Virus record (IMG/VR): IMGVR_UViG_3300047095_000623
Location: 1-59,990 of that record
Length of the DNA: 59,990 bases
Reading direction: 5' to 3' (one strand)
Source: a virus
Position 1 is the first letter of the stretch. Every line of letters begins with the position of its first letter. Position numbers and translations under genes: made by a program. The notes below the pieces were generated by a model. That model was not told where the DNA came from and did no database searches. It worked only from the letters and a program-made list of their open reading frames with translations. Positions 36,694-59,757 of this stretch are shown in pieces.

Positions 36694-36924
36694 TCAGAAT
36701 AAGATGTCGCGTTTAAGTTCGCGGGCTTGCACCGTGAACTGCAACGCTTTGAGGCGATGAACTTCACGCATGGCTTGACGGTGGCGGATCGCAAGGATCT
36801 GGCCAACCGTTCCCATCAAAGATGCGAACGCGGTGCAGTTGCGGGCTTGCGCCATTTGATCCTCAAGATCCATGGTGCGATGGGTGGCGGCATCAAGACG
36901 GTCATTCAATTGGTGGTCAGGCAT
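36694..36924 (-). CDS. Unknown basic helical protein, 76 aa
   Basis: MPDHQLNDRLDAATHRTMDL, then MGTVGQILAIRHRQAMREVH. All helix, Arg/His rich. Promoter with 6-base spacing at 36931. First gene of the minus block; GC richer than most of the window. Confidence 0.65.
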   Translation of the reverse strand: MPDHQLNDRLDAATHRTMDLEDQMAQARNCTAFASLMGTVGQILAIRHRQAMREVHRLKALQFTVQARELKRDILF

Positions 36925-36930
36925 GGCTTG

Positions 36931-36950
36931 ATTCTATTGTAGTGTTTAAT
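36931..36950 (-). promoter_or_regulatory. AAACACTA-type promoter
   Basis: AAACACTACAATAGAAT, 6 bases from the ATG at 36924. Confidence 0.75.
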
Positions 36951-36970
36951 TGTGGTTTCGACTTAAACAA

Positions 36971-37005
36971 GGCGGGCGCGAGAAAATCATATTCTCGCGC
37001 CCGCC
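36971..37005 (-). terminator. Hairpin terminator
   Basis: A perfect 14-bp stem, GGCGGGCGCGAGAA with its complement around a 7-base loop, followed on the minus strand by TTGTTTAAG, just past the stop at 37017. Confidence 0.65.
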
Positions 37006-37016
37006 GCAGGGATGAC

Positions 37017-37361
37017 TTAGCTACGCGCGAAGCGGGTCGTGACGCCGTTCAACTTCATCCAGCGATAGAGCGCGGCCATCACTTGGGGACTGTCGCCGTA
37101 GTGCTTACGGATCAACCCGTCACGTTTGAACAGGGTTTCAGCGATGATGCGCGTGGAACTATGCTTTGCGCTCCGCTTGATGAATTGGAAGTGTGGCGCA
37201 AAGTAGCGATCAATTCCATTCTTGCGGGTCTTGGCGGTGATCACGGTCAACCCATCATTCAGATCCATCAACGGAGTGCGCTTGACGGGTTGCGCGGGAG
37301 TGTGGGCGAGTGCGTATGCGATGGCATTGGCGATGATGGTGGCGAGTGCGATTTGTTTCAT
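37017..37361 (-). CDS. Unknown protein with signal-like N-terminus, 114 aa
   Basis: MKQIALATIIANAIAYALAH, then TPAQPVKRTPLMDLNDG: a short hydrophobic N-terminus that could be an export signal. The remainder is basic (FQFIKRSAKHSSTRIIAETL, YRWMKLNGVTTRFARS). No family. Confidence 0.65.
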   Translation of the reverse strand: MKQIALATIIANAIAYALAHTPAQPVKRTPLMDLNDGLTVITAKTRKNGIDRYFAPHFQFIKRSAKHSSTRIIAETLFKRDGLIRKHYGDSPQVMAALYRWMKLNGVTTRFARS

Positions 37362-37370
37362 GGTAGGGAT

Positions 37371-37390
37371 ATTTTAGGTTAGTGTTTAAT
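37371..37390 (-). promoter_or_regulatory. AAACACTA-type promoter
   Basis: AAACACTAACCTAAAAT, 9 bases from the ATG at 37361. Confidence 0.65.
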
Positions 37391-37419
37391 CACGCCGTTC
37401 GGGGCGGTACTGACAATAG

Positions 37420-37447
37420 GGCGGGGAAGTCATGGAACCTCCCCGCC
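37420..37447 (-). terminator. GC-rich hairpin, second of a pair
   Basis: GGCGGGGA/TCCCCGCC, 8 bp, 12-base loop, next to the stronger hairpin at 37454. Confidence 0.4.
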
Positions 37448-37453
37448 AAGGTT

Positions 37454-37476
37454 GGGCGGGGGAATCACCCCCGCCC
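37454..37476 (-). terminator. GC-rich hairpin after the 37485 gene
   Basis: GGGCGGGGG/CCCCCGCCC, 9 bp with a 5-base loop, 9 bases past the stop codon. No T-run. Confidence 0.5.
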
Positions 37477-37484
37477 GCCAGATT

Positions 37485-37940
37485 TTACTTCAACCCGAGC
37501 GCCTGAAGCTTGGCTTGAATCCTGGCCATTTGTGCCCGGAGAACCGCTGGGTCGTTGTAGTCAATTTTTGCGGGTTTCGTTGGGCGAAGTGCGAAAGTGC
37601 GCTTCATTTCCAGATCAAGATGGTCGATCAAGTCATAAATGACCTTCCCATCTTCGTCACGCTCCCAATCGGTACCCTCTTCGTTTATGCGGGCGCGGTC
37701 TTCGTAACGGCGATTCTTCACGACGTGCAAGCACGCTCCGATGAACTCCTTTTCAGTGGCGGCGTATTCTTTTGTCGCGCCCGCTCCGATGAATTGTTCA
37801 CGCATCGCGGTGATTTCCGCTTTGTCGGCTTTGCTAACGCCAACAATTGCGTTGTCGCTCTTATTCTCAACCACGACGGGCGCGGTGGTTTCGGTTTCGG
37901 TGGTGGTGGTCATGGTTTCGATTGTGTTGGTTTCGGACAT
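37485..37940 (-). CDS. Unknown protein, 151 aa, Thr/Glu-rich N-terminus
   Basis: Starts MSETNTIETMTTTTETETTA. A middle region (EFIGACLHVVKNRRYEDRAR) and the C-terminal helix AVLRAQMARIQAKLQALGLK, which resembles the RKLAKVQAKLAAQG end of the protein at 57590. No known function. Promoter with 6-base spacing. Confidence 0.72.
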   Translation of the reverse strand: MSETNTIETMTTTTETETTAPVVVENKSDNAIVGVSKADKAEITAMREQFIGAGATKEYAATEKEFIGACLHVVKNRRYEDRARINEEGTDWERDEDGKVIYDLIDHLDLEMKRTFALRPTKPAKIDYNDPAVLRAQMARIQAKLQALGLK

Positions 37941-37946
37941 GGCGTT

Positions 37947-37964
37947 ATTCTGTTCTAGTGTTTT
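37947..37964 (-). promoter_or_regulatory. AAACACTAG-type promoter
   Basis: AAACACTAGAACAGAAT, 6 bases from the ATG at 37940. Confidence 0.72.
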
Positions 37965-37985
37965 ATGCTGGTTTCGGTTCTTGGT

Positions 37986-38063
37986 TTAGTGACATGCGCC
38001 CATCATGGTCGCGATATCGTGGACTATATCAGACGGGGCGTCTACGCTTATCATTAGTATCAT
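37986..38063 (-). CDS. Possible small peptide, 25 aa
   Basis: MILMISVDAPSDIVHDIATM then MGACH. Supported only by the promoter at 38072 and a leader (GAATGGCGGGGCATG) identical to that of the next upstream gene. Confidence 0.4.
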   Translation of the reverse strand: MILMISVDAPSDIVHDIATMMGACH

Positions 38064-38232
38064 GCCCCGCCATTCTATCGTAGTGTTTAATCGGCCTGTC
38101 TCCCCGGTATAACGGGAAGAGCGGGGCGGGTTTCTCATATGTCAGGCGGGCGGGCGCGGGAATGACGGGCAAACACCCTATATACTTTAGGAATATAAGG
38201 ACCAGGGACAGTATTGGATTGGACGGTTTCAT
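38029..38232 (-). CDS. Small hydrophobic-N-terminus protein, 67 aa
   Basis: MKPSNPILSLVLIFLKYIGC, then LPVIPAPARLTYEKPAPLFP: one short hydrophobic helix followed by a Pro- and Arg-rich tail. The 3' part reads through the promoter at 38072 and overlaps the next small frame, so the real end may differ in function. Promoter at 38241. Confidence 0.5.
   Translation of the reverse strand: MKPSNPILSLVLIFLKYIGCLPVIPAPARLTYEKPAPLFPLYRGDRPIKHYDRMAGHDTNDKRRRPV
38072..38091 (-). promoter_or_regulatory. AAACACTA-type promoter
   Basis: AAACACTACGATAGAAT, 8 bases from the ATG at 38063. Confidence 0.65.
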
Positions 38233-38240
38233 GCCCCGCC

Positions 38241-38260
38241 ATTCTGTCCTAGTGTTTAAT
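38241..38260 (-). promoter_or_regulatory. AAACACTAG-type promoter
   Basis: AAACACTAGGACAGAAT, 8 bases from the ATG at 38232. Confidence 0.68.
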
Positions 38261-38345
38261 CGGCCCGCCTAACTCCAAACGTGCGCGGGCGCGTACGCGT
38301 ACGCGTGGGACGCACCATGACACTGTGCAGACTATTTCTTGCCAT
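38256..38345 (-). CDS. Possible small Arg-rich peptide, 29 aa
   Basis: MARNSLHSVMVRPTRTRTRP then RTFGVRRAD. The Arg-Thr repeat comes from the palindromic ACGCGT repeat at 38291-38306. Its stop codon lies in the next promoter. Weak. Confidence 0.35.
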   Translation of the reverse strand: MARNSLHSVMVRPTRTRTRPRTFGVRRAD

Positions 38346-38349: not shown

Positions 38350-38431
38350 ATCTTACCCTAGTGTTTAATCGGGTCGCCTAGTGTTTAACCCGCCCCATAC
38401 CCTAGTGTTTAATACATCCGCCTAGTGTTTA
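38350..38431 (-). repeat. Four tandem AAACACTAG boxes
   Basis: CTAGTGTTTA (plus-strand view) at 38359, 38378, 38402 and 38422, spaced 19, 24 and 20 bases. Only the first has a proper -10 box (TAAGAT); the others lack it or have only a poor match. The fourth contains the stop codon of the 38429 gene. Confidence 0.85.
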
Positions 38432-38647
38432 ATACCCACATCCAGTGGGTTTGATATACATGATCACGCGGTCAGATTGTACTTCATCGTCGGGAAGTGC
38501 GTATAAACAGTTGACATCCTCACAGATCGCCACCGTTTGTCGAAGGATATCCGCCTGTTTATGGGCGTAGCTCAGGATTTGGCGGGCCATTGGGAGGTTG
38601 TAATCAGTCCCCGTCATCATAAGTACGTGCTCTTCGTGGGTGATCAT
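38429..38647 (-). CDS. Unknown protein, 72 aa
   Basis: MITHEEHVLMMTGTDYNLPM, helix ARQILSYAHKQADILRQTVA, then YALPDDEVQSDRVIMYIKPT. No family. Promoter at 38654; its TAA stop is part of the last tandem AAACACTAG box. Confidence 0.7.
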   Translation of the reverse strand: MITHEEHVLMMTGTDYNLPMARQILSYAHKQADILRQTVAICEDVNCLYALPDDEVQSDRVIMYIKPTGCGY

Positions 38648-38653
38648 GTGTGT

Positions 38654-38672
38654 ATTCTACGCTAGTGTTTAT
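38654..38672 (-). promoter_or_regulatory. AAACACTAG-type promoter
   Basis: AAACACTAGCGTAGAAT, 6 bases from the ATG at 38647. Confidence 0.78.
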
Positions 38673-39039: not shown

Positions 39040-39411
39040 TCACCATAGGTCATCCTCATCAATCAGATCTTCGATCCGAACTGCGTCTTCATCCGGTTCC
39101 TTACGCTCTTCCATAATAACCGTTGCGGAACTGTGACAATTCACCCAATACACGCGGATCGCGAGACGTTTGAAATGTGTATCCTCCTCGATAATGATAA
39201 TCTTGGTGATATTGGATGAATTGGACCCGCCTTGTTCCCATGAGATAAAGTCATTCCAATAGTGATGTAAACATGTGGAGGCTACCACCACCATACCCTC
39301 AAGATGTTTAAGCAAGGCATTAAAGGCGGAAGTACCGATAACATACGAGTCTCCTTCGCTCGTTTCGGTGGTTGTGGTGGTCTCAATCAGTTGTGTGTAG
39401 GTCAGCTTCAT
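39040..39411 (-). CDS. Family A small protein (CxH-W-QGG), 123 aa
   Basis: First of three paralogs (with 39526 and 40102). Shared pattern: MVVVASTCLHHYWNDFISWE, QGGSNSSNITKIIIIEE, RLAIRVYWVNCHSSATVIME. An acidic C-terminal tail (DEDAVRIEDLIDEDDLW) is unique to this copy. The invariant Cys, His and Trp suggest a fold core or metal site. Function unknown. Own promoter. Confidence 0.75.
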   Translation of the reverse strand: MKLTYTQLIETTTTTETSEGDSYVIGTSAFNALLKHLEGMVVVASTCLHHYWNDFISWEQGGSNSSNITKIIIIEEDTHFKRLAIRVYWVNCHSSATVIMEERKEPDEDAVRIEDLIDEDDLW

Positions 39412-39417
39412 GTGTGT

Positions 39418-39436
39418 ATTCTAGGCTAGTGTTTAT
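39418..39436 (-). promoter_or_regulatory. AAACACTAG-type promoter
   Basis: AAACACTAGCCTAGAAT, 6 bases from the ATG at 39411. Confidence 0.78.
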
Positions 39437-39525: not shown

Positions 39526-39825
39526 TCAGGACTTTTTCTTGAACAAAACCGTCGTGGGAGTATCACAATCCATCCACCAGACATTGATCGCGAGTTTTCC
39601 GACCTCTTCCACAAGAATTTCAATGTGTTCAAGATTATTCATATTAGTACCACCTTGAGAGTATGAAGGGAACGCGGGCCACTCGTAATGTATACAAGTC
39701 GTCGCAACGAACGTATAATCATTCTTCAAACATTCAAGAAGCGCTTCAAACTCCGGTTCTTTGAAAGAAAACCCTTCTCCAACCTCAAAATCATAATCAA
39801 CCGTCGTTTGTTTGGTGTATTTCAT
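39526..39825 (-). CDS. Family A small protein (CxH-W-QGG), 99 aa
   Basis: Second family A paralog: YTFVATTCIHYEWPAFPSYS, QGGTNMNNLEHIEILVEE, KLAINVWWMDCDTPTTVLF. The N-terminal half is MKYTKQTTVDYDFEVGEGF. Same layout as the neighbours at 39040 and 40102, so a local duplication series. Own promoter at 39832. Confidence 0.75.
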   Translation of the reverse strand: MKYTKQTTVDYDFEVGEGFSFKEPEFEALLECLKNDYTFVATTCIHYEWPAFPSYSQGGTNMNNLEHIEILVEEVGKLAINVWWMDCDTPTTVLFKKKS

Positions 39826-39831
39826 ATTCGT

Positions 39832-39850
39832 ATTCTATTTTAGTGTTTAT
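39832..39850 (-). promoter_or_regulatory. AAACACTA-type promoter
   Basis: AAACACTAAAATAGAAT, 6 bases from the ATG at 39825. Confidence 0.75.
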
Positions 39851-40101: not shown

Positions 40102-40425
40102 TCAATCATTGATATTGCACATATCTTTGAAGATTACAACGGCGATTTGATCACCAGTCCATGTAACATTCAACGCAAGACGCCCCGAACCTTCATCGAT
40201 ATCAAGAATCTCAATCTTTACGATCCTCGAAAGGTTGCGACCCCCCTGAGAACCACTAGGAAAAGCTTTCCACTCACTATGCTCACAAGATGCCGCAACG
40301 AATGTAAGCTTCTTAAGTCTCTCCAGAAACTTGTTGAAAAACGCGGTGTCGTCCCTGATAATCTGTCCAACGTTGAGAATGATCTCAGACGTAACCAACT
40401 CTTGATACTTTACTGTGATTGCCAT
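40102..40425 (-). CDS. Family A small protein (CxH-W-QGG), 107 aa
   Basis: Third family A paralog: LTFVAASCEHSEWKAFPSGS, QGGRNLSRIVKIEILDID, RLALNVTWTGDQIAVVIF. The N-terminus MAITVKYQELVTSEIILNVG differs from the other two. Own promoter at 40432 with the standard spacing. Confidence 0.75.
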   Translation of the reverse strand: MAITVKYQELVTSEIILNVGQIIRDDTAFFNKFLERLKKLTFVAASCEHSEWKAFPSGSQGGRNLSRIVKIEILDIDEGSGRLALNVTWTGDQIAVVIFKDMCNIND

Positions 40426-40431
40426 ATGTGT

Positions 40432-40450
40432 ATTCTATTCTAGTGTTTAT
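40432..40450 (-). promoter_or_regulatory. AAACACTAG-type promoter
   Basis: AAACACTAGAATAGAAT, 6 bases from the ATG at 40425; contains the stop of the 40447 gene. Confidence 0.78.
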
Positions 40451-40671
40451 ACTATGTCGGAAACCATCATTTCAATGACACAGAACGAACGTTCCCCGCA
40501 TTGAATCTCCAGATAATCCTCGGAATCATCCCGTTCCTCGTCAGTCAATGGACGGTTTAGATATTTTGCCGCAAGATCCTCGATCATGCTTTTTCCTTCG
40601 AATGCTGAAGAAACTTGCATGAGTTCTTCAAGACTATTATTCTCCACGATTGCCACGAATGTTGCTTTCAT
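40447..40671 (-). CDS. Unknown acidic protein, 74 aa
   Basis: MKATFVAIVENNSLEELMQV, then MIEDLAAKYLNRPLTDEERD and CGERSFCVIEMMVSDIV. Mixed alpha/beta, acidic. No family. Own promoter at 40680; stop inside the next promoter. Confidence 0.7.
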   Translation of the reverse strand: MKATFVAIVENNSLEELMQVSSAFEGKSMIEDLAAKYLNRPLTDEERDDSEDYLEIQCGERSFCVIEMMVSDIV

Positions 40672-40679
40672 ATGTGTCT

Positions 40680-40698
40680 ATTCTATCCTAGTGTTTAT
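40680..40698 (-). promoter_or_regulatory. AAACACTAG-type promoter
   Basis: AAACACTAGGATAGAAT, 8 bases from the ATG at 40671. Confidence 0.72.
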
Positions 40699-41073: not shown

Positions 41074-41349
41074 TTAGTCAGCGATAACTTCAACATTGGC
41101 AAGGGGAACAAAAAGTTCCTTGTTGCCATAGAAAAGGTCGCGGGTGTCGGGTTCCGCATCACCATAACTTAATCCGCTACTGATACTAACGAGAACGAAC
41201 AACGGTTGAGCACTGTCCACTATAGAGGTTTTCATAACCATATAAATCGTTCCCGCCTTACGATGGCGAAAACAATCACCAACCTTCGGGTTGGAATAGT
41301 CATAGGGAGGAATCAGATCCTTTTTAAATGTGATTTTCTTATCGGTCAT
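41074..41349 (-). CDS. Family B small protein (VGDCFRH), 91 aa
   Basis: One of a local family with 41391, 41699, 41996 and the C-terminal half of 43112. Order: PPYDYSNPKVGDCFRHRKAG, TIYMVMKTS, LFVLVSISSGLSYG, GNKELFVPLANVEVI. The GDxFxH…YMV…(L/I)SxGxxYG…F.PL pattern suggests a small beta-barrel. Unknown function. Confidence 0.75.
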   Translation of the reverse strand: MTDKKITFKKDLIPPYDYSNPKVGDCFRHRKAGTIYMVMKTSIVDSAQPLFVLVSISSGLSYGDAEPDTRDLFYGNKELFVPLANVEVIAD

Positions 41350-41355
41350 GGTATT

Positions 41356-41373
41356 AGTATAGGCTAGTGTTTA
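41356..41373 (-). promoter_or_regulatory. AAACACTAG-type promoter
   Basis: AAACACTAGCCTATACT, 6 bases from the ATG at 41349. Confidence 0.76.
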
Positions 41374-41390: not shown

Positions 41391-41672
41391 TTACTCGGCT
41401 TCAGAGATATCCACCTTGGAAAGCGGGGTGAACCTGCGTTCGTTATTGGAGAATACCTTACGATTACGAACAGGTTGGGAATAACCATAACTGACGCCAT
41501 CCGAAAGATCAATAAGCATATACAAAGACAGGTTTCCACCGGGAGCGGTGGTCATGGTGAGCATATAGATTGTTCCGGCTGTATGACGGAAACAATCCCC
41601 GATTTATGGTGAATCGTAGTTATACGGTTCAACTACGGGTTTCGGGCAACTAACGTTTACTTTGGTCTTCAT
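41391..41672 (-). pseudogene. Family B gene interrupted by an in-frame TAA
   Basis: Reads MKTKVNVSCPKPVVEPYNYD SP, then TAA at 41604-41606, then IGDCFRHTAGTIYMLTM…LIDLSDGVSYG…RRFTPLSKVDISEAE in the same frame. The stop replaces the residue before V/IGDCF in the intact paralogs, so a single base change explains it. Promoter and downstream frame are intact, so the lesion looks recent, unless it is a sequencing error. Confidence 0.8.
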
Positions 41673-41680
41673 ATGTGATT

Positions 41681-41699
41681 ATTATAGGCTAGTGTTTAT
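41681..41699 (-). promoter_or_regulatory. AAACACTAG-type promoter
   Basis: AAACACTAGCCTATAAT, 8 bases from the ATG of the broken gene at 41672. Confidence 0.74.
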
Positions 41700-42288: not shown

Positions 42289-42459
42289 TCAATAGGTGTG
42301 ATTGGTGCTGTGACTGGTAAGCGCACCCCGATAAGACAGGATAGGTGTTGCGCGGGAAGACAGGGACTTCTTAATGGTGTAAATCCCTTGTTTGCGGGGT
42401 TTTTTGAATGCCATGGAGACCCAACTTGATTGCAGCGACTTTTGTGGTGCTTTGAACAT
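42289..42459 (-). CDS. Small very basic protein, 56 aa
   Basis: MFKAPQKSLQSSWVSMAFKK, then PRKQGIYTIKKSLSSRATP. Rich in Lys, Arg and Ser with few acidic residues, so nucleic-acid binding is plausible. Promoter with 6-base spacing strongly supports expression. Confidence 0.65.
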   Translation of the reverse strand: MFKAPQKSLQSSWVSMAFKKPRKQGIYTIKKSLSSRATPILSYRGALTSHSTNHTY

Positions 42460-42465
42460 GACCTT

Positions 42466-42483
42466 ATTATATGCTAGTGTTTA
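42466..42483 (-). promoter_or_regulatory. AAACACTAG-type promoter
   Basis: AAACACTAGCATATAAT, 6 bases from the ATG at 42459; contains the stop of the 42481 gene. Confidence 0.78.
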
Positions 42484-43104: not shown

Positions 43105-43121
43105 ATTATAGTTATTGTTTA
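43105..43121 (-). promoter_or_regulatory. Variant AAACAATA-type promoter
   Basis: AAACAATAAC then TATAAT, 6 bases from the ATG at 43098; one base shorter than consensus. Confidence 0.6.
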
Positions 43122-43501
43122 GTAATAGGAGTGAAAAGGTCACGGAAACCCGCACCAAAGATCTCATTGATATCTTCCCGTGGATCTGTGAAGCGATCAC
43201 CGCTAGACAGGTTGATCAGAGCGAAAATTTCCTTCCCGACCCTACACACCATGTACTCGGTACCATTATACATATACCGATCTCCCGGTGCAATGGGAGT
43301 GTTATAGGTGTATGAAACGTTTACCAAGGTAAGGCTTTCACGGCATTCATGAAATATATGCGCCCGTGTGGTATATCTATGGAGGTCGCCAGTACCAATA
43401 TTACATAACGCGCTCTCTCCATTAAATAGTGGTGTCACCACAAACAAAGCGCCATGCTCATTGACAAAATGATCACCCCTCATTGGTAAGTCCTTAATCA
43501 T
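43112..43501 (-). CDS. Two-domain family B protein, 129 aa
   Basis: Two copies of the small barrel in one chain: MRGDHFVNEHGALFVVTPLF and, after about 65 residues, APGDRYMYNGTEYMVCRVGK with ALINLSSGDRFTDP and FRDLFTPITKQ. The second copy keeps the family B ending (F.PI/L). Suggests fusion after duplication. Own promoter at 43508. Confidence 0.72.
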   Translation of the reverse strand: MIKDLPMRGDHFVNEHGALFVVTPLFNGESALCNIGTGDLHRYTTRAHIFHECRESLTLVNVSYTYNTPIAPGDRYMYNGTEYMVCRVGKEIFALINLSSGDRFTDPREDINEIFGAGFRDLFTPITKQ

Positions 43502-43507
43502 ATATGT

Positions 43508-43526
43508 ATTATAGTGTAGTGTTTAT
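43508..43526 (-). promoter_or_regulatory. AAACACTA-type promoter
   Basis: AAACACTACACTATAAT, 6 bases from the ATG at 43501. Confidence 0.76.
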
Positions 43527-45538: not shown

Positions 45539-45829
45539 TTACTTAACTTCGGTCCACTTACCGTTCCAAGGGTTGCCGTTGAGATATGGAGTACCTTTGT
45601 CCGTATGAATCTGTAGTCCGCGAAGACCATTAAGACGCTCGCGGGTTATCTTGGTGTTATGTCCTGCCAAGGTAATAGATAGATTATCCTTGGAATCCAA
45701 TCGGGCGATGGGGTGTCCATGTAAAGCCAGCAACGCGACCTTTCCCAATACGACAACCGCCGTATTGTTATCACACATCGGTTCACGATTTAGAAACGAC
45801 TCTTGAATCTTTTTGGTTCCCTTTCTCAT
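45539..45829 (-). CDS. Unknown protein, 96 aa
   Basis: MRKGTKKIQESFLNREPMCD, then VVVLGKVALLALHGHPIARL, LSITLAGHNTKITRERLNGL, RGLQIHTDKGTPYLNGNPWN. Beta-rich; the pattern (tVxLHGhxIA…isLaGw.T.tTreRLN) is a common small phage protein family of unknown function. Own promoter with standard spacing. Confidence 0.75.
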   Translation of the reverse strand: MRKGTKKIQESFLNREPMCDNNTAVVVLGKVALLALHGHPIARLDSKDNLSITLAGHNTKITRERLNGLRGLQIHTDKGTPYLNGNPWNGKWTEVK

Positions 45830-45835
45830 GTGGTT

Positions 45836-45853
45836 ATTATATTCTAGTGTTTA
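45836..45853 (-). promoter_or_regulatory. AAACACTAG-type promoter inside a coding end
   Basis: AAACACTAGAATATAAT, 6 bases from the ATG at 45829. It encodes the last residues (…LLNTRI) and stop of the 45837 gene. Confidence 0.78.
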
Positions 45854-50100: not shown

Positions 50101-50208
50101 TAGGGGCGGGGGGAGTTGAACCCCCTATCCTCGGTTTATCTTGGAATGTCTCAAATAAATGTGACACTCCTAGAGAGACCGACGCATTAACCGTTCTGCT
50201 ACACCCCT
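50101..50208 (-). tRNA. tRNA-like gene with a long insertion in the anticodon loop
   Basis: Acceptor AGGGGTG/CGCCCCT, D arm GCAG-AACGGTTAA-TGC, T arm GGGGG-TTCAACT-CCCCC and an anticodon stem TCGGT/ACCGA are all good. The loop between the anticodon stem strands is 42 bases instead of 7 and contains its own hairpin GGAGTGTC/GACATTCC. Identity cannot be read; an intron or insertion is possible. No encoded CCA. Confidence 0.55.
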
Positions 50209-50762: not shown

Positions 50763-51052
50763 AATATTATTTCTTCTACGAGTTTCTTAAAAGACATTCC
50801 TAGTTGTTCAGTCACATAAGTACACAGTGAATGAAGTTTGAATTGTTCACCGAAGAGCTTGCCCCATTTACGGGACTCTTCTTTCATATATTCCTCCAAC
50901 CCTGTTTTATGGTCAGGATGGTTCTTGATAAAGACTTTCTCCAATGCCTTATACGAAGTCCAATCCACATCAGGATTCTTCAAAGGGTTGTGTTGTAGCC
51001 TTGAGAGCTTTCCAAGGTACAGTCGGGCGGGTAAAGTGTCAAGTAATTTCAT
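50759..51052 (-). CDS. Unknown protein, 97 aa
   Basis: MKLLDTLPARLYLGKLSRLQ, ALEKVFIKNHPDHKTGLEEY, FKLHSLCTYVTEQLGMSFKK. Helical, basic. ATGA overlaps with both neighbours. Confidence 0.7.
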   Translation of the reverse strand: MKLLDTLPARLYLGKLSRLQHNPLKNPDVDWTSYKALEKVFIKNHPDHKTGLEEYMKEESRKWGKLFGEQFKLHSLCTYVTEQLGMSFKKLVEEIIL

Positions 51053-51402
51053 AAGGTACCCTTTCCAAATCTTCTTTCAAGTTCCTTCTTACTATCTTGC
51101 TTTCTTCTAAGTTCAAACTCGTACCGATCAAGATATGCAATGGCTTGTTGACGTGCGGTTGCCCTCAACAAAGGGGTACAATTCTCCACATCGACCTGAC
51201 CTACAACAGATGCCAACGCCTGTTCATATAGATCGAATTCCTCTTCCGACAACTTACTAAGGATCGTATCCATCGCATCCAAAGAGGTTGCGTACGACAG
51301 TCCATCATAATAATGTTTCCAATCCGCACCCCATGTTGTACGGTACGTTTCCGCCTCATGCGCGACATATTCACTAAGTTGACTATCGGTTAGGTGATCC
51401 AT
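51049..51402 (-). CDS. Unknown protein, 117 aa
   Basis: MDHLTDSQLSEYVAHEAETY, all-helical, with LEEEFDLYEQALASVVGQV-like region and a basic tail KELERRFGKGTL. First gene of the unit behind the promoter at 51409. Confidence 0.7.
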   Translation of the reverse strand: MDHLTDSQLSEYVAHEAETYRTTWGADWKHYYDGLSYATSLDAMDTILSKLSEEEFDLYEQALASVVGQVDVENCTPLLRATARQQAIAYLDRYEFELRRKQDSKKELERRFGKGTL

Positions 51403-51408
51403 GTGTCT

Positions 51409-51426
51409 ATTCTACGCTAGTGTTTA
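51409..51426 (-). promoter_or_regulatory. AAACACTAG-type promoter
   Basis: AAACACTAGCGTAGAAT, 6 bases from the ATG at 51402. Confidence 0.78.
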
Positions 51427-51645
51427 ACCAACATCTTTATCATAATACGCCTTACAGAAATCCGTTTGAACTCGTTTCCTACGCGCTTTCATCGCTTCTA
51501 AAGCAAGCTCAGTGTTTTTTATATCCTCGTTCAGCTCTACCATATACAGCTTATACACCGCATACAAGTCAGTCTTGTTTTTCGCCGTTGGCAAGAAACG
51601 AATCTTCTCTATAAGAGCATGGAACGATCCACTTAAAGTTTTCAT
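51424..51645 (-). CDS. Unknown helical protein, 73 aa
   Basis: MKTLSGSFHALIEKIRFLPT, then a long charged helix (NEDIKNTELALEAMKARRKR). ATGA overlap with the 51642 gene; stop in the next promoter. Confidence 0.68.
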   Translation of the reverse strand: MKTLSGSFHALIEKIRFLPTAKNKTDLYAVYKLYMVELNEDIKNTELALEAMKARRKRVQTDFCKAYYDKDVG

Positions 51646-51827
51646 AGTTTTGTTTTTCTATACTCATGCACCCAAGAAACAATCTTGTCTTGGACAGACT
51701 TCGGATGCCCGAAAGTCTTTGCCCTTCTTCTTATACTCATGTCGTTGGGACATTTCCTAGCATACTCCAGCAGTCCCAATATATGTATCCCGAAGTTACA
51801 CTCAGGGAAATTATAGGGGTTGTTCAT
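51642..51827 (-). CDS. Unknown basic protein, 61 aa
   Basis: NFGIHILGLLEYARKCPNDM, SIRRRAKTFGHPKSVQDKIV. May be a small helix-turn-helix-like basic protein; not proven. Promoter at 51834. Confidence 0.68.
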   Translation of the reverse strand: MNNPYNFPECNFGIHILGLLEYARKCPNDMSIRRRAKTFGHPKSVQDKIVSWVHEYRKTKL

Positions 51828-51833
51828 ATATAC

Positions 51834-51852
51834 ATTCTACGCTAGTGTTTAT
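51834..51852 (-). promoter_or_regulatory. AAACACTAG-type promoter
   Basis: AAACACTAGCGTAGAAT, 6 bases from the ATG at 51827. Confidence 0.78.
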
Positions 51853-52458: not shown

Positions 52459-53985
52459 TTATTGAGCTTCTTCTTGCGGCTTGTTGTTACGGGTAGGAAC
52501 ATCCGTAATATAAGCCAACTTCTTCATGGCGCGGGTGACTGCCACATAGGACAGATTGCGCTCTTGTTTAAGTTGTGCTTCAGTCACCGCATACTTGCTA
52601 GGAACGAATTGCGCCATACCCATCAGATAAGCGTTTTCGAATTCAAGACCCTTTGCCTTGTGAATGGAACTAAGAGTAACAATGTTCGCATTCTTCACAT
52701 CACCGGAATCGGTGAACATGTTGGAGATAAGAGTCTTGAGACTTTCCACAGTGTGTTGTCCCAAAGCTTGGCAACGTTCGATCAGAATGATCATGGTCTC
52801 CATCTTGTCTTCAAGAAGTTGCATCTTGGCCTTGGAAGCTTTCTCAAACTCGCGGTCAAAATACTTCACAAGTCTTTCAGTGAAAGTATTGAGGTCTTTC
52901 ACCTTCCACTTGTTGCAAAGAGTGATAAGATTCTGGCCAATGTCGCGACCCTCAATCCGGCAACCAATACCCTTGCGGATAAGTGCGAATGCCAAGGCAA
53001 CATTAGGAGCATTGTTACGGCAGATGATGCCATCCTTCGCGGAAAGATTCATCGTATCGACTTGCGCCAGAAGATCATCATACTTCATGCTGACAATCTC
53101 GCCATCACCATTCTCTTCGAAAGCTTCGATATGGGGTTGATACTTTTGCGCTTCCTTGATGATGTTCTTCCCGCAACGATAGCAGATAGACAGGGGAAGT
53201 TCAATACAGTTGAACATTTCCTTGAGAAGATTCATCGAATCGCTCTCCGCACCAGTGAACGCATAGATCGCTTGATTCTCATCACCGATGATAAGCAGAC
53301 GCCCACCATCCTTAAGAATCTTTGCGATGAACAACTTACGGGTAACGTTGGTATCCTGCGCCTCATCGACAATCACCCAATCATATTGAGTGCATTTGAT
53401 ATCATAGATAAGCGGAAGATAGATCATGTCCGCAAAGTCAATGTTGCGGAAATCGCGGTTGGACTCACGCAGAACATCCTTGGCGATATCAATAACTTCA
53501 TAAAAGTCCACGTCCGCATCAAGAGAGATATCCTGAGTTTGAATGATTTCCATCCAAGCTTCGTTGTCATCAATGGAACGTTGACCCTTAACGCCGAACG
53601 CATATTCCTTCGCAAAGCCGACAAGCTTCTTGATGAAGGGAATCGCAGCGATAAGTTCCGGAGTTTGGCAGTAACGTTCAGTGATAAAATACACCTTGGA
53701 ATCGGTAACGTTCACGCGACCCTTGGACTTGATAAGATTCTGCATCCCTTCACTATGGAAGGTTGCGGCACGGGCATTGGGTAAGCCCATGTTGGAAAGT
53801 TTGGCAGCAAGAGCCATTGCTATACGCTTGTTAAAGGCGAGACTAAGAACATTTCCAACCATAAGAGGCATAGACGAAATTGCCGTCGAGGTTTTGCCCG
53901 AACCAGCTACCGCGCCCACAATACAATTTCCTTTTCCATACTGTACCCAATCATAAATGGCAGTTTGATATTTACTCGGTTTCAT
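52459..53985 (-). CDS. UvrD/Rep-type superfamily 1 DNA helicase
   Basis: A 508-residue 3'-5' SF1A helicase. Walker A GNCIVGAVAGSGKTST, motif II DWVIVDEAQDT, motif III GDENQAIYAFTGA, motif IV-like LPLSICYRCGKNII, motif V VTLSSIHKAKGLEFENAYLM, motif VI LSYVAVTRAMKKL. Shorter than UvrD (720), lacking large 1B/2B insertions, as in many phage helicases. Likely acts in replication or recombination. Promoter at 53995 with 9-base spacing. Confidence 0.95.
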   Translation of the reverse strand: MKPSKYQTAIYDWVQYGKGNCIVGAVAGSGKTSTAISSMPLMVGNVLSLAFNKRIAMALAAKLSNMGLPNARAATFHSEGMQNLIKSKGRVNVTDSKVYFITERYCQTPELIAAIPFIKKLVGFAKEYAFGVKGQRSIDDNEAWMEIIQTQDISLDADVDFYEVIDIAKDVLRESNRDFRNIDFADMIYLPLIYDIKCTQYDWVIVDEAQDTNVTRKLFIAKILKDGGRLLIIGDENQAIYAFTGAESDSMNLLKEMFNCIELPLSICYRCGKNIIKEAQKYQPHIEAFEENGDGEIVSMKYDDLLAQVDTMNLSAKDGIICRNNAPNVALAFALIRKGIGCRIEGRDIGQNLITLCNKWKVKDLNTFTERLVKYFDREFEKASKAKMQLLEDKMETMIILIERCQALGQHTVESLKTLISNMFTDSGDVKNANIVTLSSIHKAKGLEFENAYLMGMAQFVPSKYAVTEAQLKQERNLSYVAVTRAMKKLAYITDVPTRNNKPQEEAQ

Positions 53986-53994
53986 TATGACGTA

Positions 53995-54012
53995 ATTATA
54001 TTGTAGTGTTTA
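53995..54012 (-). promoter_or_regulatory. AAACACTA-type promoter
   Basis: AAACACTACAATATAAT, 9 bases from the ATG at 53985; contains the stop of the 54010 gene. Confidence 0.72.
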
Positions 54013-54372
54013 ACTTTGATCCTGCATCCAATTCAAAGTCTTATAAATAGCTTCCGCTCTTTGCGCTGCGGTCGCGCCAATACAGCAAGTTAAAGGTGTA
54101 CTAGCGACGGTTCTGTTCATATCCCGGGCGACAATTTCCCTTAACTCACAATGATAGTTTAAGACGTTCGTGAAGTTTATCAGTTTTGATTCTACCTTAT
54201 GTGTTTCATTAAGATCGTTAAAATAATCAGGGAGATTGCCGCCAAGGTCAAACTCGTCATGGCACCAATATGGGTTTAAATTTCCACCCTCCTCGTCAAT
54301 ATGAGGTCTGAGTATTTTCCACCCACACCCCATACCAAGTGTTGTTGCTATACATTGTTCAGTTGCACACAT
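54010..54372 (-). CDS. Unknown cysteine-containing protein, 120 aa
   Basis: MCATEQCIATTLGMGCGWKI, NPYWCHDEFDLGGNLPDYFN, HCELREIVARDMNRTVASTP, LTCCIGATAAQRAEAIYKTL. The GKI/GWKxxxP…DLGGxLPDYxxDLNA-like region, ending in ATAAQRAEAxyKTL, is seen in many phages (phage protein of unknown function, DUF2591-like). Family name given with caution. Confidence 0.75.
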   Translation of the reverse strand: MCATEQCIATTLGMGCGWKILRPHIDEEGGNLNPYWCHDEFDLGGNLPDYFNDLNETHKVESKLINFTNVLNYHCELREIVARDMNRTVASTPLTCCIGATAAQRAEAIYKTLNWMQDQS

Positions 54373-54378
54373 ATCAGT

Positions 54379-54396
54379 ACTATCAATTAGTGTTTA
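54379..54396 (-). promoter_or_regulatory. AAACACTA-type promoter
   Basis: AAACACTAATTGATAGT, 6 bases from the ATG at 54372. Confidence 0.7.
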
Positions 54397-54563: not shown

Positions 54564-55244
54564 TTAAAAATTAAAGGTAGGAACAGGGGCGAGTGTACGT
54601 TCCAGACGAGCTTGGATAACCTTCAGTTCCCGCTGAAGATCTTCAAGTCTCTTCTGATTAGGATCTCCCAACTGTTTAAGATAGATACGATCACCACAAC
54701 GACTACAAATCTTCAACCCGCTCCTGTATACATATCTTCCAAGACGGGCGTTCCACCTACGTTGTTGAATACCTTTTAACCCATTCTGGATATGGTTGTG
54801 CATGGTCGTGGAGATAGCAAACTCTGTGTTACATCCACAAGTATAGATATGGCGAAGTTCGCGTTTAACCTTTGTAACAGTTGTGTCATAGTTATGGCAC
54901 CTATCCGCAGGAATACCATACACCCTCGTCATGATGTACTCCCACTCATAACCATGCGGGCGAAGCTTTTTACCCACTTGTAGATAGAGAAAAAACTGCA
55001 CATAATGCGCGACTTCGTGCGTCACGGTGTTCTCGTAATCTTCCGGGTGATGTTCAGCCAAATCCAATTGGAACATGAGTTCCCGCTTTGTCTTGGAATA
55101 GTTCATGGTGCATCTTCCACCAGTAGTACCGCTCCTTCTAAACTCAATGTTTGTCGGGCGAGGGAATGGTTGTTTATAGTAATTCTCCGCAGTGAGAAAA
55201 CATGCTTCAACCTTATCGAGGATTTGTTGTTTCATGGTAGGCAT
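54564..55244 (-). CDS. SprT-like zinc metalloprotease
   Basis: A 226-residue protein. Catalytic motif NTVTHEVAHYVQFF (HExxH) with a third ligand in RPHGYEWEYIMTRVYG, the SprT/Spartan pattern (HExxH…HgxxWk). The C-terminal zinc ribbon CGCNTEF…CSRCGDRI is as in bacterial SprT. SprT-like enzymes in eukaryotes cleave DNA-protein crosslinks; the phage role is unknown. Promoter at 55251. Confidence 0.88.
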   Translation of the reverse strand: MPTMKQQILDKVEACFLTAENYYKQPFPRPTNIEFRRSGTTGGRCTMNYSKTKRELMFQLDLAEHHPEDYENTVTHEVAHYVQFFLYLQVGKKLRPHGYEWEYIMTRVYGIPADRCHNYDTTVTKVKRELRHIYTCGCNTEFAISTTMHNHIQNGLKGIQQRRWNARLGRYVYRSGLKICSRCGDRIYLKQLGDPNQKRLEDLQRELKVIQARLERTLAPVPTFNF

Positions 55245-55250
55245 GTCCGT

Positions 55251-55268
55251 ATTATGCTCTAGTGTTTA
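55251..55268 (-). promoter_or_regulatory. AAACACTAG-type promoter
   Basis: AAACACTAGAGCATAAT, 6 bases from the ATG at 55244. Confidence 0.76.
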
Positions 55269-55281: not shown

Positions 55282-55491
55282 TCAAGCCCTAGTAAACTTT
55301 GATTCCCAATCACCGAAAGCTTCGAATGCAGTGGACATTAAACCCGCCCAATGCCCCCCAGTCTTATCTTGAACAAGAATCCATAGATCAAAGTCCGGTA
55401 ACTTTTGAAGGGTGTAATGAATCTCATATCCATCCACGTCCCCGTATAAAAACTTATCACCACTCTTTAGATCATCGTGTTCAGTAATCAT
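55282..55491 (-). CDS. Unknown protein, 69 aa
   Basis: MITEHDDLKSGDKFLYGDVD, GYEIHYTLQKLPDFDLWILV, QDKTGGHWAGLMSTAFEAFG. The SGDKFLYGD opening suggests a small barrel. Promoter at 55498. Confidence 0.68.
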   Translation of the reverse strand: MITEHDDLKSGDKFLYGDVDGYEIHYTLQKLPDFDLWILVQDKTGGHWAGLMSTAFEAFGDWESKFTRA

Positions 55492-55497
55492 GTCGTT

Positions 55498-55515
55498 ATT
55501 GTATGGTAGTGTTTA
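55498..55515 (-). promoter_or_regulatory. AAACACTA-type promoter
   Basis: AAACACTACCATACAAT, 6 bases from the ATG at 55491. Confidence 0.75.
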
Positions 55516-56224: not shown

Positions 56225-56560
56225 TTATGATAGTAAGTCTTTCCAGATGTTCTCCACTCGTTCCATCAAACGTTTCTCCCAACCGGGAACCCTATTGATA
56301 CGCTTGCTTTTGATAAGACCTTTGTTGGTGATGGTACTAATCGCAGATACCCGGATGGCATCCTGACCTACACCCCGACTTATCCCACTGTTCTTATGAA
56401 TGGATGAATAGACTTTTATCAGAACCCAAGGTCTGGTCTTAAGACTTTTCGTATAAACAATCTCTTGTGCGTACCCGGAAAGTTCCTTATTCCAATTCTT
56501 CTCGGGTTTGAATATCGCATCAAACTCCCCTTCAAGAATCGTACAATAGGTGGCTGACAT
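56225..56560 (-). CDS. Conserved phage protein, 111 aa
   Basis: YCTILEGEFDAIFKPEKNWN, ELSGYAQEIVYTKSLKTRPW, VLIKVYSSIHKNSGISRGVG, QDAIRVSAISTITNKGLIKS, RVPGWEKRLMERVENIWKD. The strands and RGVGxDAIRVxAI…RVPGWExRLxxRV order recur in phages of several hosts; not functionally known. Promoter at 56567. Confidence 0.75.
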   Translation of the reverse strand: MSATYCTILEGEFDAIFKPEKNWNKELSGYAQEIVYTKSLKTRPWVLIKVYSSIHKNSGISRGVGQDAIRVSAISTITNKGLIKSKRINRVPGWEKRLMERVENIWKDLLS

Positions 56561-56564
56561 GGCC

Positions 56565-56903
56565 TTAGTATATCCTAGTGTTTAAATATGCCTCCCCTTC
56601 CGATATTATTCGATCTATCACCCAAGATTGATATAGTCGGTTGCCTTTGGCATCATACCCGTTGTCATACAAGTCATCATTGGAAATACAGTGCCACACT
56701 TCACCAACCCGGACAGGATGGAAGCTTAACATATCGTTAAATTCCCAAGTTAAACCATCACATCTGCTATGGGCAGAACCGTAAGAGCTTCCATCAACAT
56801 CGGAGTACCATTGGCTATTCGGGATAGAGTCATAACATCTAATGTTGTCCGGTATGTCGGATAATACCAACCCATACTCTCTTTCATGTTCTTCCCATGT
56901 CAT
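56565..56903 (-). CDS. Unknown protein, 112 aa
   Basis: MTWEEHEREYGLVLSDIPDN, GSAHSRCDGLTWEFNDMLSF, RVGEVWHCISNDDLYDNGYD, SWVIDRIISEGEAYLNTRIY. Trp and Tyr rich. No family. Its TAA stop is the start of the next promoter. Confidence 0.68.
   Translation of the reverse strand: MTWEEHEREYGLVLSDIPDNIRCYDSIPNSQWYSDVDGSSYGSAHSRCDGLTWEFNDMLSFHPVRVGEVWHCISNDDLYDNGYDAKGNRLYQSWVIDRIISEGEAYLNTRIY
56567..56584 (-). promoter_or_regulatory. AAACACTAG-type promoter
   Basis: AAACACTAGGATATACT, 6 bases from the ATG at 56560; contains the stop region of the 56565 gene. Confidence 0.77.
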
Positions 56904-56909
56904 GTCACT

Positions 56910-56927
56910 ATCATATCCTAGTGTTTA
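56910..56927 (-). promoter_or_regulatory. AAACACTAG-type promoter
   Basis: AAACACTAGGATATGAT, 6 bases from the ATG at 56903. Confidence 0.77.
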
Positions 56928-57508: not shown

Positions 57509-57589
57509 AATATCTCCATTCCAAGCATATGACCCCCTCCCATGATTATCTCACGGGATGGGGATTATGCGCCTACCTATACAGGGTTA

Positions 57590-57970
57590 TTACACCGCCA
57601 CTTCAACAATGGTTTCCGGTTCATCGGTAGTTTCCGCTTCACCATCCACCGACACGCCTTGCGCGGCAAGTTTAGCTTGGACCTTGGCAAGCTTCCGCTC
57701 AAGAGTTGCCTTGAGCTTTTCTTCGGGAGTCAGTACAACCTTCTCCTGCTTAACCTTCACCAAACCAAGAGTCTTGGCAAGGACTGCGAAAGTGTCAACT
57801 TCCACGCCATCGGCCAAACCAATACGGTTGTTTGTGGCAATCTCAATAAGAAGACGAACCACGCCCTTGTCACCAAGGTTCAGTTCTTCTTTCAGAGTAT
57901 TGATAATGCCCTTGTCTGCTTCGTTGGTATTCACCACGAACTGTTTTGTTTTGTTTGCTGTATCACTCAT
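57590..57970 (-). CDS. Unknown acidic protein, 126 aa
   Basis: MSDTANKTKQFVVNTNEADK, GIINTLKEELNLGDKGVVRL, LIEIATNNRIGLADGVEVDT, RKLAKVQAKLAAQGVSVDG. The last helix resembles the end of the 37485 product. The N-terminal half looks like a small DNA-binding ribbon-helix-helix-type region (speculative). Promoter at 57979. Confidence 0.72.
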   Translation of the reverse strand: MSDTANKTKQFVVNTNEADKGIINTLKEELNLGDKGVVRLLIEIATNNRIGLADGVEVDTFAVLAKTLGLVKVKQEKVVLTPEEKLKATLERKLAKVQAKLAAQGVSVDGEAETTDEPETIVEVAV

Positions 57971-57978
57971 ACTTTTTT

Positions 57979-57996
57979 ATCCTATTCTAGTGTTTA
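57979..57996 (-). promoter_or_regulatory. AAACACTAG-type promoter
   Basis: AAACACTAGAATAGGAT, 8 bases from the ATG at 57970. Confidence 0.7.
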
Positions 57997-58568
57997 ATGT
58001 TGTTGGCTTCTAAGAGTTCTTTATGTAGAGCCACCAGATCATAAAGAGTTTGGGCGGGAAACGTCTGACACCCGACCACCACCTTGTCCACATAGACGCT
58101 GGCGTTGTATTGTTCATTGAGAGTTAAATCCTTGCTCTTCGGAGGAGCGGAGTACGCGGATAAAGGAATGTAACTTGTTAGTTTAAGTTTATCGAGTCGT
58201 ATGACCAACACAACACAAAAACCATCACGGTCAAAATCCTCTTTTATCGCGGGAGTAACGTATGCGCGATTCAGTTGTCGAATATCCATTAGAAGGGTCG
58301 CGTCCGTAACCGTACCCGTTTCATATTCTAGAGCGGCTTCATGTCCTATAAGACCCATGCCTTTCTTATATTCTTCCATCGGATCTAGAGCAATAGGCTC
58401 AAACCTTTTTCTAGAAAACCAACTAATATAGTCTCCATCCTTAGTATAAACGTCACATAGGCCGCCGTCACGACCTCCAGAAAACTGAGCAATTCTATAC
58501 ACTTCTCCTACTACCAGTTGGCCCGTCCACCCTTCTTTACACCGCATCAATGTTGTTTCTCTTTCCAT
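57987..58568 (-). CDS. VGCQ-module protein, subtype 3, 193 aa
   Basis: N-terminal barrel-like region MRCKEGWTGQLVVGEVYRIA, VYTKDGDYISWFSRKRFEPI, then a middle domain (ATLLMDIRQLNRAYVTPAIK, CVVLVIRLDKLKLTSY), and the module LTLNEQYNASVYVDKVVV then GCQTFPAQTLYDLVALHKEL. Paralog of 58607 along its whole length. Confidence 0.77.
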   Translation of the reverse strand: MERETTLMRCKEGWTGQLVVGEVYRIAQFSGGRDGGLCDVYTKDGDYISWFSRKRFEPIALDPMEEYKKGMGLIGHEAALEYETGTVTDATLLMDIRQLNRAYVTPAIKEDFDRDGFCVVLVIRLDKLKLTSYIPLSAYSAPPKSKDLTLNEQYNASVYVDKVVVGCQTFPAQTLYDLVALHKELLEANNIKH

Positions 58569-58606
58569 GTTATTATTCTTCTAAGTTTGTCCATTCCTTT
58601 TGGTGG

Positions 58607-59173
58607 CTATTCGATTTCTTTATGCAGAGCCACCAAATCATAAAGGGTTTTAATTGGGAATTCCTGACACCCCACTTTAATTTTGTCCGCGTACACCTCG
58701 GCGGTATATTGTTCATTAAGAACCAAGGATTTGTGTATCGCTGCGGGACGACATAGTTCCAAGGGGTGATTCGCTCTACGTCTAGATTCTGATTCCGTAG
58801 TCAACACGATGCAATATTGCTTGTTGTTGAATCGCTCTCGGATATCTGGAGTATCATAATCATATACTAACTGCCGTTCATCCAATAGAAGAGTGGCGAA
58901 CATAACCTTTCGAGTAACAACGACACCCTCGGTCTGTATCTCTACCCATGTTCCGATAAGGTTTAGGGCATCGCTGTATAACTGTTTGTAGTCCGTACAA
59001 AGTTTTTCAACTATCGGACGAAACCTCTTTGAACAATATATTCCAAGATAGACTCCATTCTCGGTATAGACTTTATACATGTCCTCCATGTAATTCTGTG
59101 AAGTTACCCTATAAGTTTGTCCATGTACCAAGTCTTGGATACGCTCCACACACTCGACAAGTTTTGTTTCCAT
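58607..59173 (-). CDS. VGCQ-module protein, subtype 3, 188 aa
   Basis: VECVERIQDLVHGQTYRVTS, VYTENGVYLGIYCSKRFRPI, ATLLLDERQLVYDYDTPDIR, CIVLTTESESRRRAN, then LVLNEQYTAEVYADKIKV, GCQEFPIKTLYDLVALHKEI. Same three-part layout as 57987, so the pair arose by duplication. Read from 59739 together with 59175. Confidence 0.77.
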   Translation of the reverse strand: METKLVECVERIQDLVHGQTYRVTSQNYMEDMYKVYTENGVYLGIYCSKRFRPIVEKLCTDYKQLYSDALNLIGTWVEIQTEGVVVTRKVMFATLLLDERQLVYDYDTPDIRERFNNKQYCIVLTTESESRRRANHPLELCRPAAIHKSLVLNEQYTAEVYADKIKVGCQEFPIKTLYDLVALHKEIE

Positions 59174-59174
59174 A

Positions 59175-59732
59175 TTATTCTTTTTCTAAGTTTGAATCCT
59201 CCCACCAATGTTCCTCCACTTTGAAACCATCATCCATGGATTGTTCCCATTCGAATTCCTTCTGTGAATTATACGCCCATTCAAGAGTCATTGAGTAAGC
59301 AACAAACATTGCCGCTACTAATGAACCATGTGTAGAATGAACCACATAGTCTGCACCCGGTGGTTCCCAATAAGATCCCCCGGTAGTGTGGACATATCCT
59401 ACTTCAAAGGACTTCAGAGATCTATCCGCCACAATGGTAATGCCCCATTCCTTAGCTTCGATCCCCCATGGGAAGTCCCAATCACACATATCCGTAGAAA
59501 CAAACTGTAAGGTAGTATCTAGGGATTTGATATGTTCGTTGAAGTTTTTCACATCGATATCCAACCGCGCCGTGGTATGAATGAGGTTGCGAATGACTAA
59601 TTGATCTTCCGTACCATATTCATCCTCGGCGTTGTGCCAATCCTTATAGGGAGTCTTCACCCACAATTCCGACCAAACTTCACCGTCCTCACCGAACAGT
59701 TTATTTTCAAACTCGATTGTATCCAAGCTCAT
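59175..59732 (-). CDS. Unknown protein, 185 aa
   Basis: MSLDTIEFENKLFGEDGEVW, SELWVKTPYKDWHNAEDEYG, DWDFPWGIEAKEWGITIVAD, SFEVGYVHTTGGSYWEPPGA, DYVVHSTHGSLVAAMFVAYS. Trp-rich, mixed alpha/beta. No family recognised. First gene of a three-gene unit; TAA stop overlaps nothing. Confidence 0.72.
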   Translation of the reverse strand: MSLDTIEFENKLFGEDGEVWSELWVKTPYKDWHNAEDEYGTEDQLVIRNLIHTTARLDIDVKNFNEHIKSLDTTLQFVSTDMCDWDFPWGIEAKEWGITIVADRSLKSFEVGYVHTTGGSYWEPPGADYVVHSTHGSLVAAMFVAYSMTLEWAYNSQKEFEWEQSMDDGFKVEEHWWEDSNLEKE

Positions 59733-59738
59733 GGTCGT

Positions 59739-59757
59739 ATTATACGCTAGTGTTTAT
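59739..59757 (-). promoter_or_regulatory. AAACACTAG-type promoter
   Basis: AAACACTAGCGTATAAT, 6 bases from the ATG at 59732; contains the stop codon of the 59754 gene. Confidence 0.8.

Follow-up and report, generated by a model that had tools for sequence, protein, structure and literature searches.

What decides where transcription begins in a phage whose promoters seem to run almost directly into its start codons? The question is raised by the whole IMG/VR record IMGVR_UViG_3300047095_000623 (59,990 bases; below, the window), where a short motif, AAACACTA (the box), stands repeatedly in front of a hexamer of -10 type and then, a few bases on, an ATG. The window represents part of the genome of an uncultured T4-like (gp23) phage: positions 66-1331 encode a gp23-type capsid protein that matches the major head protein phrog_138 (E 6e-75), and its closest isolates are T4-like cyanophages and other T4-likes, at 33% identity at best. 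A preliminary description had read the box sites as promoters placed exactly for leaderless messenger RNAs (mRNAs). Judging from the sequences, we consider it probable, at about 0.7, that this phage group runs a T4-like early, middle and late programme turned leaderless, in which the box is a middle-class element read by a putative phage factor beside sigma.

Box copies in the window number 41, where a dinucleotide model expects 2.36; AAACACTAG occurs 30 times and the reversed 8-mer 3 times. A hexamer of the form (T/C)ANNNT lies exactly 3 nucleotides (nt) downstream of 35 of the 41 (chance 3.9% per site, P ~1e-43), which bears out the earlier statement that about 40 copies adjoin TAnnAT. An ATG follows exactly 6 nt past the hexamer at 25 of the 41 copies (0.8 expected; chance 1.9% per site, P ~6e-33), and in all 25 it is the furthest-upstream possible start codon of its frame. 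The histogram of hexamer-to-ATG distances has a single sharp peak at 6, then six cases at 8 and two at 9. The preliminary description had given 26 exact cases, 23 on the minus strand; we count 22 on the minus and 3 on the plus strand, and the gap of one probably stems from a near-box, TAAACAATAAC-TATAAT-N6-ATG. Its remark that most other copies stand at 8 or 9 agrees with the secondary cases. Some copies have no -10 or gene; the boxes at 5753 and 24973 look like chance occurrences. Among the plus-strand open reading frames (ORFs), the one at 19892 has 72 amino acids (aa), and those at 18274 and 21049 have only 13 and 27 codons. The sites are as follows, with +1 as the predicted transcription start and all gene calls mechanical.

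59730-59756, minus: box promoter, ATG at +1 of gene 59175-59732 (orthologues in four other contigs, box in each)
57968-57996, minus: box promoter, 8 nt to ATG of gene 57590-57970
56901-56927, minus: box promoter, ATG at +1 of gene 56565-56903
56558-56584, minus: box promoter, ATG at +1 of gene 56225-56560
55489-55515, minus: box promoter, ATG at +1 of gene 55282-55491
55242-55268, minus: box promoter, ATG at +1 of gene 54564-55244
54370-54396, minus: box with poor -10 (GATAGT), ATG at +1 of gene 54010-54372
53983-54012, minus: box promoter, 9 nt to ATG of UvrD-type helicase gene 52459-53985
51825-51851, minus: box promoter, ATG at +1 of gene 51642-51827
51400-51426, minus: box promoter, ATG at +1 of gene 51049-51402
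49983-50009, minus: box promoter, ATG at +1 of gene 49758-49985
49748-49774, minus: box promoter, ATG at +1 of gene 49481-49750
49287-49313, minus: box promoter, ATG at +1 of gene 49104-49289
48672-48698, minus: box promoter, ATG at +1 of gene 48255-48674
45827-45853, minus: box promoter, ATG at +1 of gene 45539-45829
43499-43525, minus: box promoter, ATG at +1 of gene 43112-43501
42457-42483, minus: box promoter, ATG at +1 of gene 42289-42459
41670-41698, minus: box promoter CACATATG, 8 nt to ATG of a short ORF
41347-41373, minus: box promoter, ATG at +1 of gene 41074-41349
40669-40697, minus: box promoter, 8 nt to ATG of gene 40447-40671
40423-40449, minus: box promoter, ATG at +1 of gene 40102-40425
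39823-39849, minus: box promoter, ATG at +1 of gene 39526-39825
39409-39435, minus: box promoter, ATG at +1 of gene 39040-39411
38645-38671, minus: box promoter, ATG at +1 of gene 38429-38647
38359-38431, minus: tandem array of four boxes (38366-38430), spacings 20, 24 and 20 base pairs (bp), -10 at one only
38230-38258, minus: box promoter, 8 nt to ATG of gene 38029-38232
38061-38089, minus: box and -10, 8 nt to ATG of a short ORF
37938-37964, minus: box promoter, ATG at +1 of gene 37485-37940
37359-37388, minus: box promoter, 9 nt to ATG of gene 37017-37361
36922-36948, minus: box promoter, ATG at +1 of gene 36694-36924
18250-18276, plus: box promoter, ATG at +1, 13-codon ORF only
19868-19894, plus: box promoter, ATG at +1 of gene 19892-20110
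21025-21051, plus: box promoter, ATG at +1 of 27-codon ORF, with a serine transfer RNA (tRNA-Ser, 21132) downstream
12604-12621, plus: box promoter upstream of tRNA-Glu (12632)
15640-15657, plus: box promoter upstream of the CTA-anticodon tRNA (15673) and subsequent tRNAs
11772-11789, plus: box promoter, then directly a short hairpin and T-rich stretch (to 11820), no gene between

The tandem array at 38366-38430 is possibly a binding array for the putative box factor. The same order, a box promoter and directly after it a hairpin and a T-rich run, recurs without an intervening gene in a second phage (L102, about 11801, plus strand), and it is possible that such units in the window and L102 make a very short RNA or serve as a regulatory decoy. 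The region 36000-38300 of the window is GC-rich (52% vs 43%), and among its box promoters are some with a CAGAAT hexamer and some with a longer distance to the ATG.

The arrangement is a property of a clade. Many relatives of the window exist in IMG/VR, some about 200 kb long; six long relatives have many copies of the AAACACTA box with its -10, and two others have one each. The 6-nt spacing was found again in all seven other contigs studied, and the distance from box promoter to ATG peaks at 6 in G001, G003, G004 and G006 as in the window, so that the histogram proposed earlier as a check gives the same sharp peak in the window and in its relatives. Moreover, relatives without AAACACTA retain the TANNAT-N6-ATG peak with a different box in the spacer, AAAAACTAG in G024 and G031 (about 90% identical to each other at protein level) and TTAAAACCGAA in G005. 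In sequence logos the box occupies about -24 to -15, followed by the -10 and the ATG at +1, with no information at -35; the box ends 1-3 nt before the -10, and in G005 conservation runs from -27 to -14. Hence the box does lie upstream of the -10, as first described, but it covers the spacer and not an extended -10 element.

The lineage-specific boxes AAACACTA, AAAAACTA and AAAACCGAA stand at nearly the same position. In 24 orthologue families with swapped boxes, the sequence varies by lineage while the position is kept within a base, and the box type of its own genome is carried by 285 of 286 box genes. Such a concerted swap is what a changing trans-acting factor predicts. Boxes are carried by many non-structural genes of the clade. 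In G024 (L106-L109), neighbouring blocks favour different -10 hexamers in their box promoters, TACAAT in one and TAAGAT in another.

Is the register set by transcription or by the start codon? In eight contigs an ATG stands at the predicted +1 in 265 of 427 sites with box and -10, and the base at -1 is a pyrimidine in 265 of these 265 (C 60%, T 39%). Bacterial transcription usually prefers to start at a purine (R) preceded by a pyrimidine (Y), that is, Y(-1)R(+1). In the same register, the remaining sites have a pyrimidine at -1 in 77% and a purine at +1 in 86%, although some of them carry ATG or GTG at +1 (a short ORF, a GTG-started gene) and the set is not wholly independent of start codons; control genes with no nearby -10 have a pyrimidine at -1 in 61%. 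The persistence of Y(-1)/R(+1) where no ATG follows argues that the register of box promoters is set by transcription. In addition, box promoters also precede tRNAs, and therefore the element acts in transcription, not in translation. Shine-Dalgarno-like motifs are no more frequent than in controls, both in box genes and in genes internal to operons, just as had been claimed for the box genes. Together with the recurrent 6-nt spacing and the start-site signature, this supports the proposal that the mRNA would start on the A of the ATG.

A second class of promoter appears to be set on the start codon as well. In the eight contigs, as in six more, the distances between TAAATA and ATG show a peak at 5 nt; if TAAATA is read as a T4 late promoter, this spacing places +1 on the ATG. 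A gp55-like sigma2 protein was found in 10 of 10 searched contigs of at least 120 kb (35% identity to P-HM1 gp55, E 4e-16); no gp55 homologue was found in the window fragment itself. A third class is of sigma70 type, TTGACA/T-N16/17-TAnnnT; 55 of its 75 cases carry TG ahead of the -10, and most lie 5-9 nt from the ATG. The feature had been placed at 36924-59757 and tied to the box genes; it is wider than that, since late and many sigma70-type promoters also lie on or near the ATG. Those found in the window are listed here.

1600-1613, plus: late-type TAAATA-N5-ATG, gene 1611-2129
2804-2819, plus: late-type TAAATA-N7-ATG, gene 2817-3542
3561-3575, plus: late-type TAAATA-N6-ATG, gene 3573-5180
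9228-9241, plus: late-type TAAATA-N5-ATG, gene 9239-9676
14765-14778, plus: late-type TAAATA-N5-ATG, gene 14776-15225
22250-22263, plus: late-type TAAATA-N5-ATG, gene 22261-22626
24494-24507, minus: late-type TAAATA-N5-ATG, gene 23807-24496
24951-24965, plus: late-type TAAATA-N6-ATG, gene 24963-25358
26292-26305, minus: late-type TAAATA-N5-ATG, gene 25332-26294
27924-27939, minus: late-type TAAATA-N7-ATG, gene 27522-27926
29990-30003, minus: late-type TAAATA-N5-ATG, gene 29426-29992
30018-30031, plus: late-type TAAATA-N5-ATG, 1201-aa gene 30029-33634
35731-35744, minus: late-type TAAATA-N5-ATG, gene 33631-35733
10991-11029, plus: sigma70-type TTGACA-N16(TG)-TAAGAT-8-ATG, gene 11027-11692

In pairs of orthologues the promoter class is mostly shared: late/late in 364, box/box in 147 and sigma70/sigma70 in 37, with 11 cross-class pairs.

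According to our model, the clade would use three promoter classes, (a) sigma70-type, (b) box promoters and (c) T4-type late TAAATA promoters. In classes (b) and (c) the -10 element would be placed to make the A of the ATG the +1 position, and in class (a) the spacing of 5-9 nt would give leaderless or nearly leaderless mRNAs. These mRNAs would begin with AUG and be translated without Shine-Dalgarno sequences, in a host that tolerates leaderless mRNA. At box promoters, sigma region 2 would read TAnnAT, while a putative lineage-specific phage factor would read the box flush against the -10 and substitute for the missing -35 contact. The box class would thus be the functional counterpart of T4 middle promoters. 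The early, middle and late timing rests on gene content and on the type of promoter. We infer it from sequence, as we do the 5' ends, the translation of leaderless mRNAs and the factor that binds the box. The odds seem to us evenly balanced for a stronger proposal, in which a new kind of phage factor would read the -24 to -15 spacer beside host sigma, would have changed specificity at least twice in the clade with its sites rewritten regulon-wide, and would act in viruses with promoter classes laid out to yield mRNAs without leaders.

Several observations weigh against this model. Of the 427 box sites, 162 (38%) lack an ATG at +1. The contigs share ancestry, and site counts overstate their independence. 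At 19637 and 19732 (plus strand) of L108, the -10 hexamers of box promoters adjoin the 5' ends of tRNA-Met and tRNA-Arg, and a start 6 nt downstream would truncate these tRNAs. The upstream TTGACA that had been reported missing is indeed no general feature, although a perfect TTGACA/T at 16-18 bp occurs in 16 of 425 clade box promoters, compared with 1 of 425 at control spacing. The proposal of a dedicated recognition factor or altered polymerase fits boxes that are lineage-specific, swapped and at chance level in cells, but the search for such a factor gave no candidate. A search of 13 contigs for MotA (PF09114) at E<=1 gave no match, although a very diverged MotA could escape it, and no clear DNA-binding regulator stood among the best 25 families per tally of 140 conserved proteins. 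The early-promoter family cl90 was folded (predicted local distance difference test, pLDDT, 88) and rejected, with no significant structural match and with nucleases as the better weak ones. A host-encoded box factor may also exist if the host lies outside the genome collection described below.

Other parts of the search concerned further candidates. A PF04542 search of the contigs returned the gp55-like protein as the only sigma-like protein, and families restricted to AAACACTA contigs included nothing convincing as the factor. The early-promoter family cl80 was rejected, as its alignment looks like a glycosyltransferase, and the PHROG 'DNA binding protein' at L141:8606-9070 showed no sign of a regulator role.

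How far can other explanations account for the same sites? Host machinery, either an alternative sigma or a host activator, could read the box in phage lineages that infect different hosts. The different boxes could then track the different hosts, and the -10 element is indeed of ordinary sigma70 type. However, the AAACACTA pattern had only 15 matches in a collection of prokaryote genomes from about 85,000 species, one per genome and in unrelated taxa, where base counts predict a few tens by chance and real use by a host should leave several copies per genome. Since cellular counts are at chance level, the box is apparently not in use in any sampled host; in viral contigs the matches cluster in a few phages. 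The same phages also have sigma70-type promoters without a box, on a different, conserved gene set. We regard reading by the host as unlikely. It is more doubtful still that the boxes have no activating role and serve, like stoperators or the operators of lambda, as sites where a phage repressor binds across otherwise ordinary promoters. Many identical copies, and a four-box array with one -10 as expected for a protein-binding site, would suit operators, yet an exact -35 is missing from 96% of box promoters, and once the box is taken away only a -10 is left. Operators usually vary in position, whereas the box is fixed relative to the -10, and orthologues seldom pair a box promoter in one genome with a sigma70-type promoter in another.

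The spacing itself could result from compact packing or translation-start context, with leader-bearing mRNAs whose starts lie elsewhere. Phages do pack their genes closely, and some T at -1 is seen in operon-internal genes too. Against it stand one-base-wide peaks in two unrelated promoter classes, box promoters before tRNAs and the Y(-1)/R(+1) signature in register where there is no ATG, and other T4-like phages, which are equally packed, have no such peak; we consider this explanation very improbable. Our model of a leaderless three-class programme with a box-reading phage factor is preferred to all of these.

A cluster of 16 tRNA genes lies at 12632-21219 on the plus strand of the window. 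One member (12765-12863) has a predicted four-base anticodon (gctg). Another (15673-15745, plus), with a box promoter upstream, has a CTA anticodon that would read UAG and was called Pyl by ARAGORN; it may be a suppressor, with UAG still serving as a stop. Stop-codon recoding was considered because of this tRNA; TAG is the stop of 15 of the 115 genes called in the window, and there is no general sign of recoding. Rfam tRNA-like matches with no ARAGORN call lie at 50101-50208 and 48713-48788, both minus, and the former spans 108 bases, as if with a long insert. Elsewhere in the window, a 1095-aa ribonucleotide reductase (5899-9186, minus) has an extra central segment that matches other families and is possibly an intein or insertion. 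An alignment of the major capsid protein (MCP) against the genome collection found no relative, and the S21 family, looked for toward host identification, was not found.

Leaderless transcripts are usually regarded as a host trait or a single-gene oddity. If our model is true, start codons and transcription starts are predicted together for hundreds of genes of uncultured but widely sampled viruses, and hosts with efficient leaderless translation are implied. The clade would then hold a phage regulon whose recognition element has been swapped across many genes at a nearly fixed position, offering a natural series for the co-evolution of factor and site and a direct route to the factor. Our literature search found no prior account of the box motif or of clade-wide leaderless phage promoters, and no phage clade in which two or more promoter classes are placed on the start codon.

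Several known systems resemble parts of this arrangement. In Deinococcus-Thermus and Actinobacteria, leaderless genes have a -10 adjoining the ORF (PMC3160421, PMC12340547), with TAnnnT about 6-7 nt upstream and no Shine-Dalgarno sequence, as here; those systems are cellular and concern about 20-46% of genes, whereas here a phage clade has several such classes and an extra lineage-specific box. Leaderless starts have been predicted at single phage promoters, for example in Cluster O mycobacteriophages (PMC4351075), which have one or two per genome, of host SigA type and not genome-wide. Promoters of the AR9/phiKZ type (PMC5312081) share repeated phage-specific motifs and, in the early class, a start 6 nt downstream, but they are read by phage multisubunit RNA polymerases, have leaders of 26-491 nt and bear unrelated motifs. 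T4 late promoters (gp55; TATAAATA) share the TAAATA core, a gp55-like sigma2 protein and the expected spacing to +1. The difference lies in placement: in the searched 50-kb stretches of T4, P-HM1 and ACP17, few TAAATA are near genes and there is no 5-nt peak, T4 having mostly 20-29 nt, whereas the clade peaks at 5.

The nearest counterpart of the box class is the T4 middle promoter, whose MotA box has its centre at -30, separated from the -10 by 12+/-1 bp, and in which AsiA acts on sigma region 4 (PMC2988021). Marine T4-like phages have been reported without identifiable middle promoters (PMC9004378). In both T4 and our clade, a phage-specific element with a sigma70-type -10 replaces the -35, beside early (sigma70) and late (gp55) classes. 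Unlike the MotA box (TGCTTtA), the box here is unrelated in sequence and lies at about -24 to -15, its logo has no information at -35 to -28, and its mRNAs are predicted to be leaderless. Thus the box promoter would work like a MotA promoter but, by the tests made, is not one.

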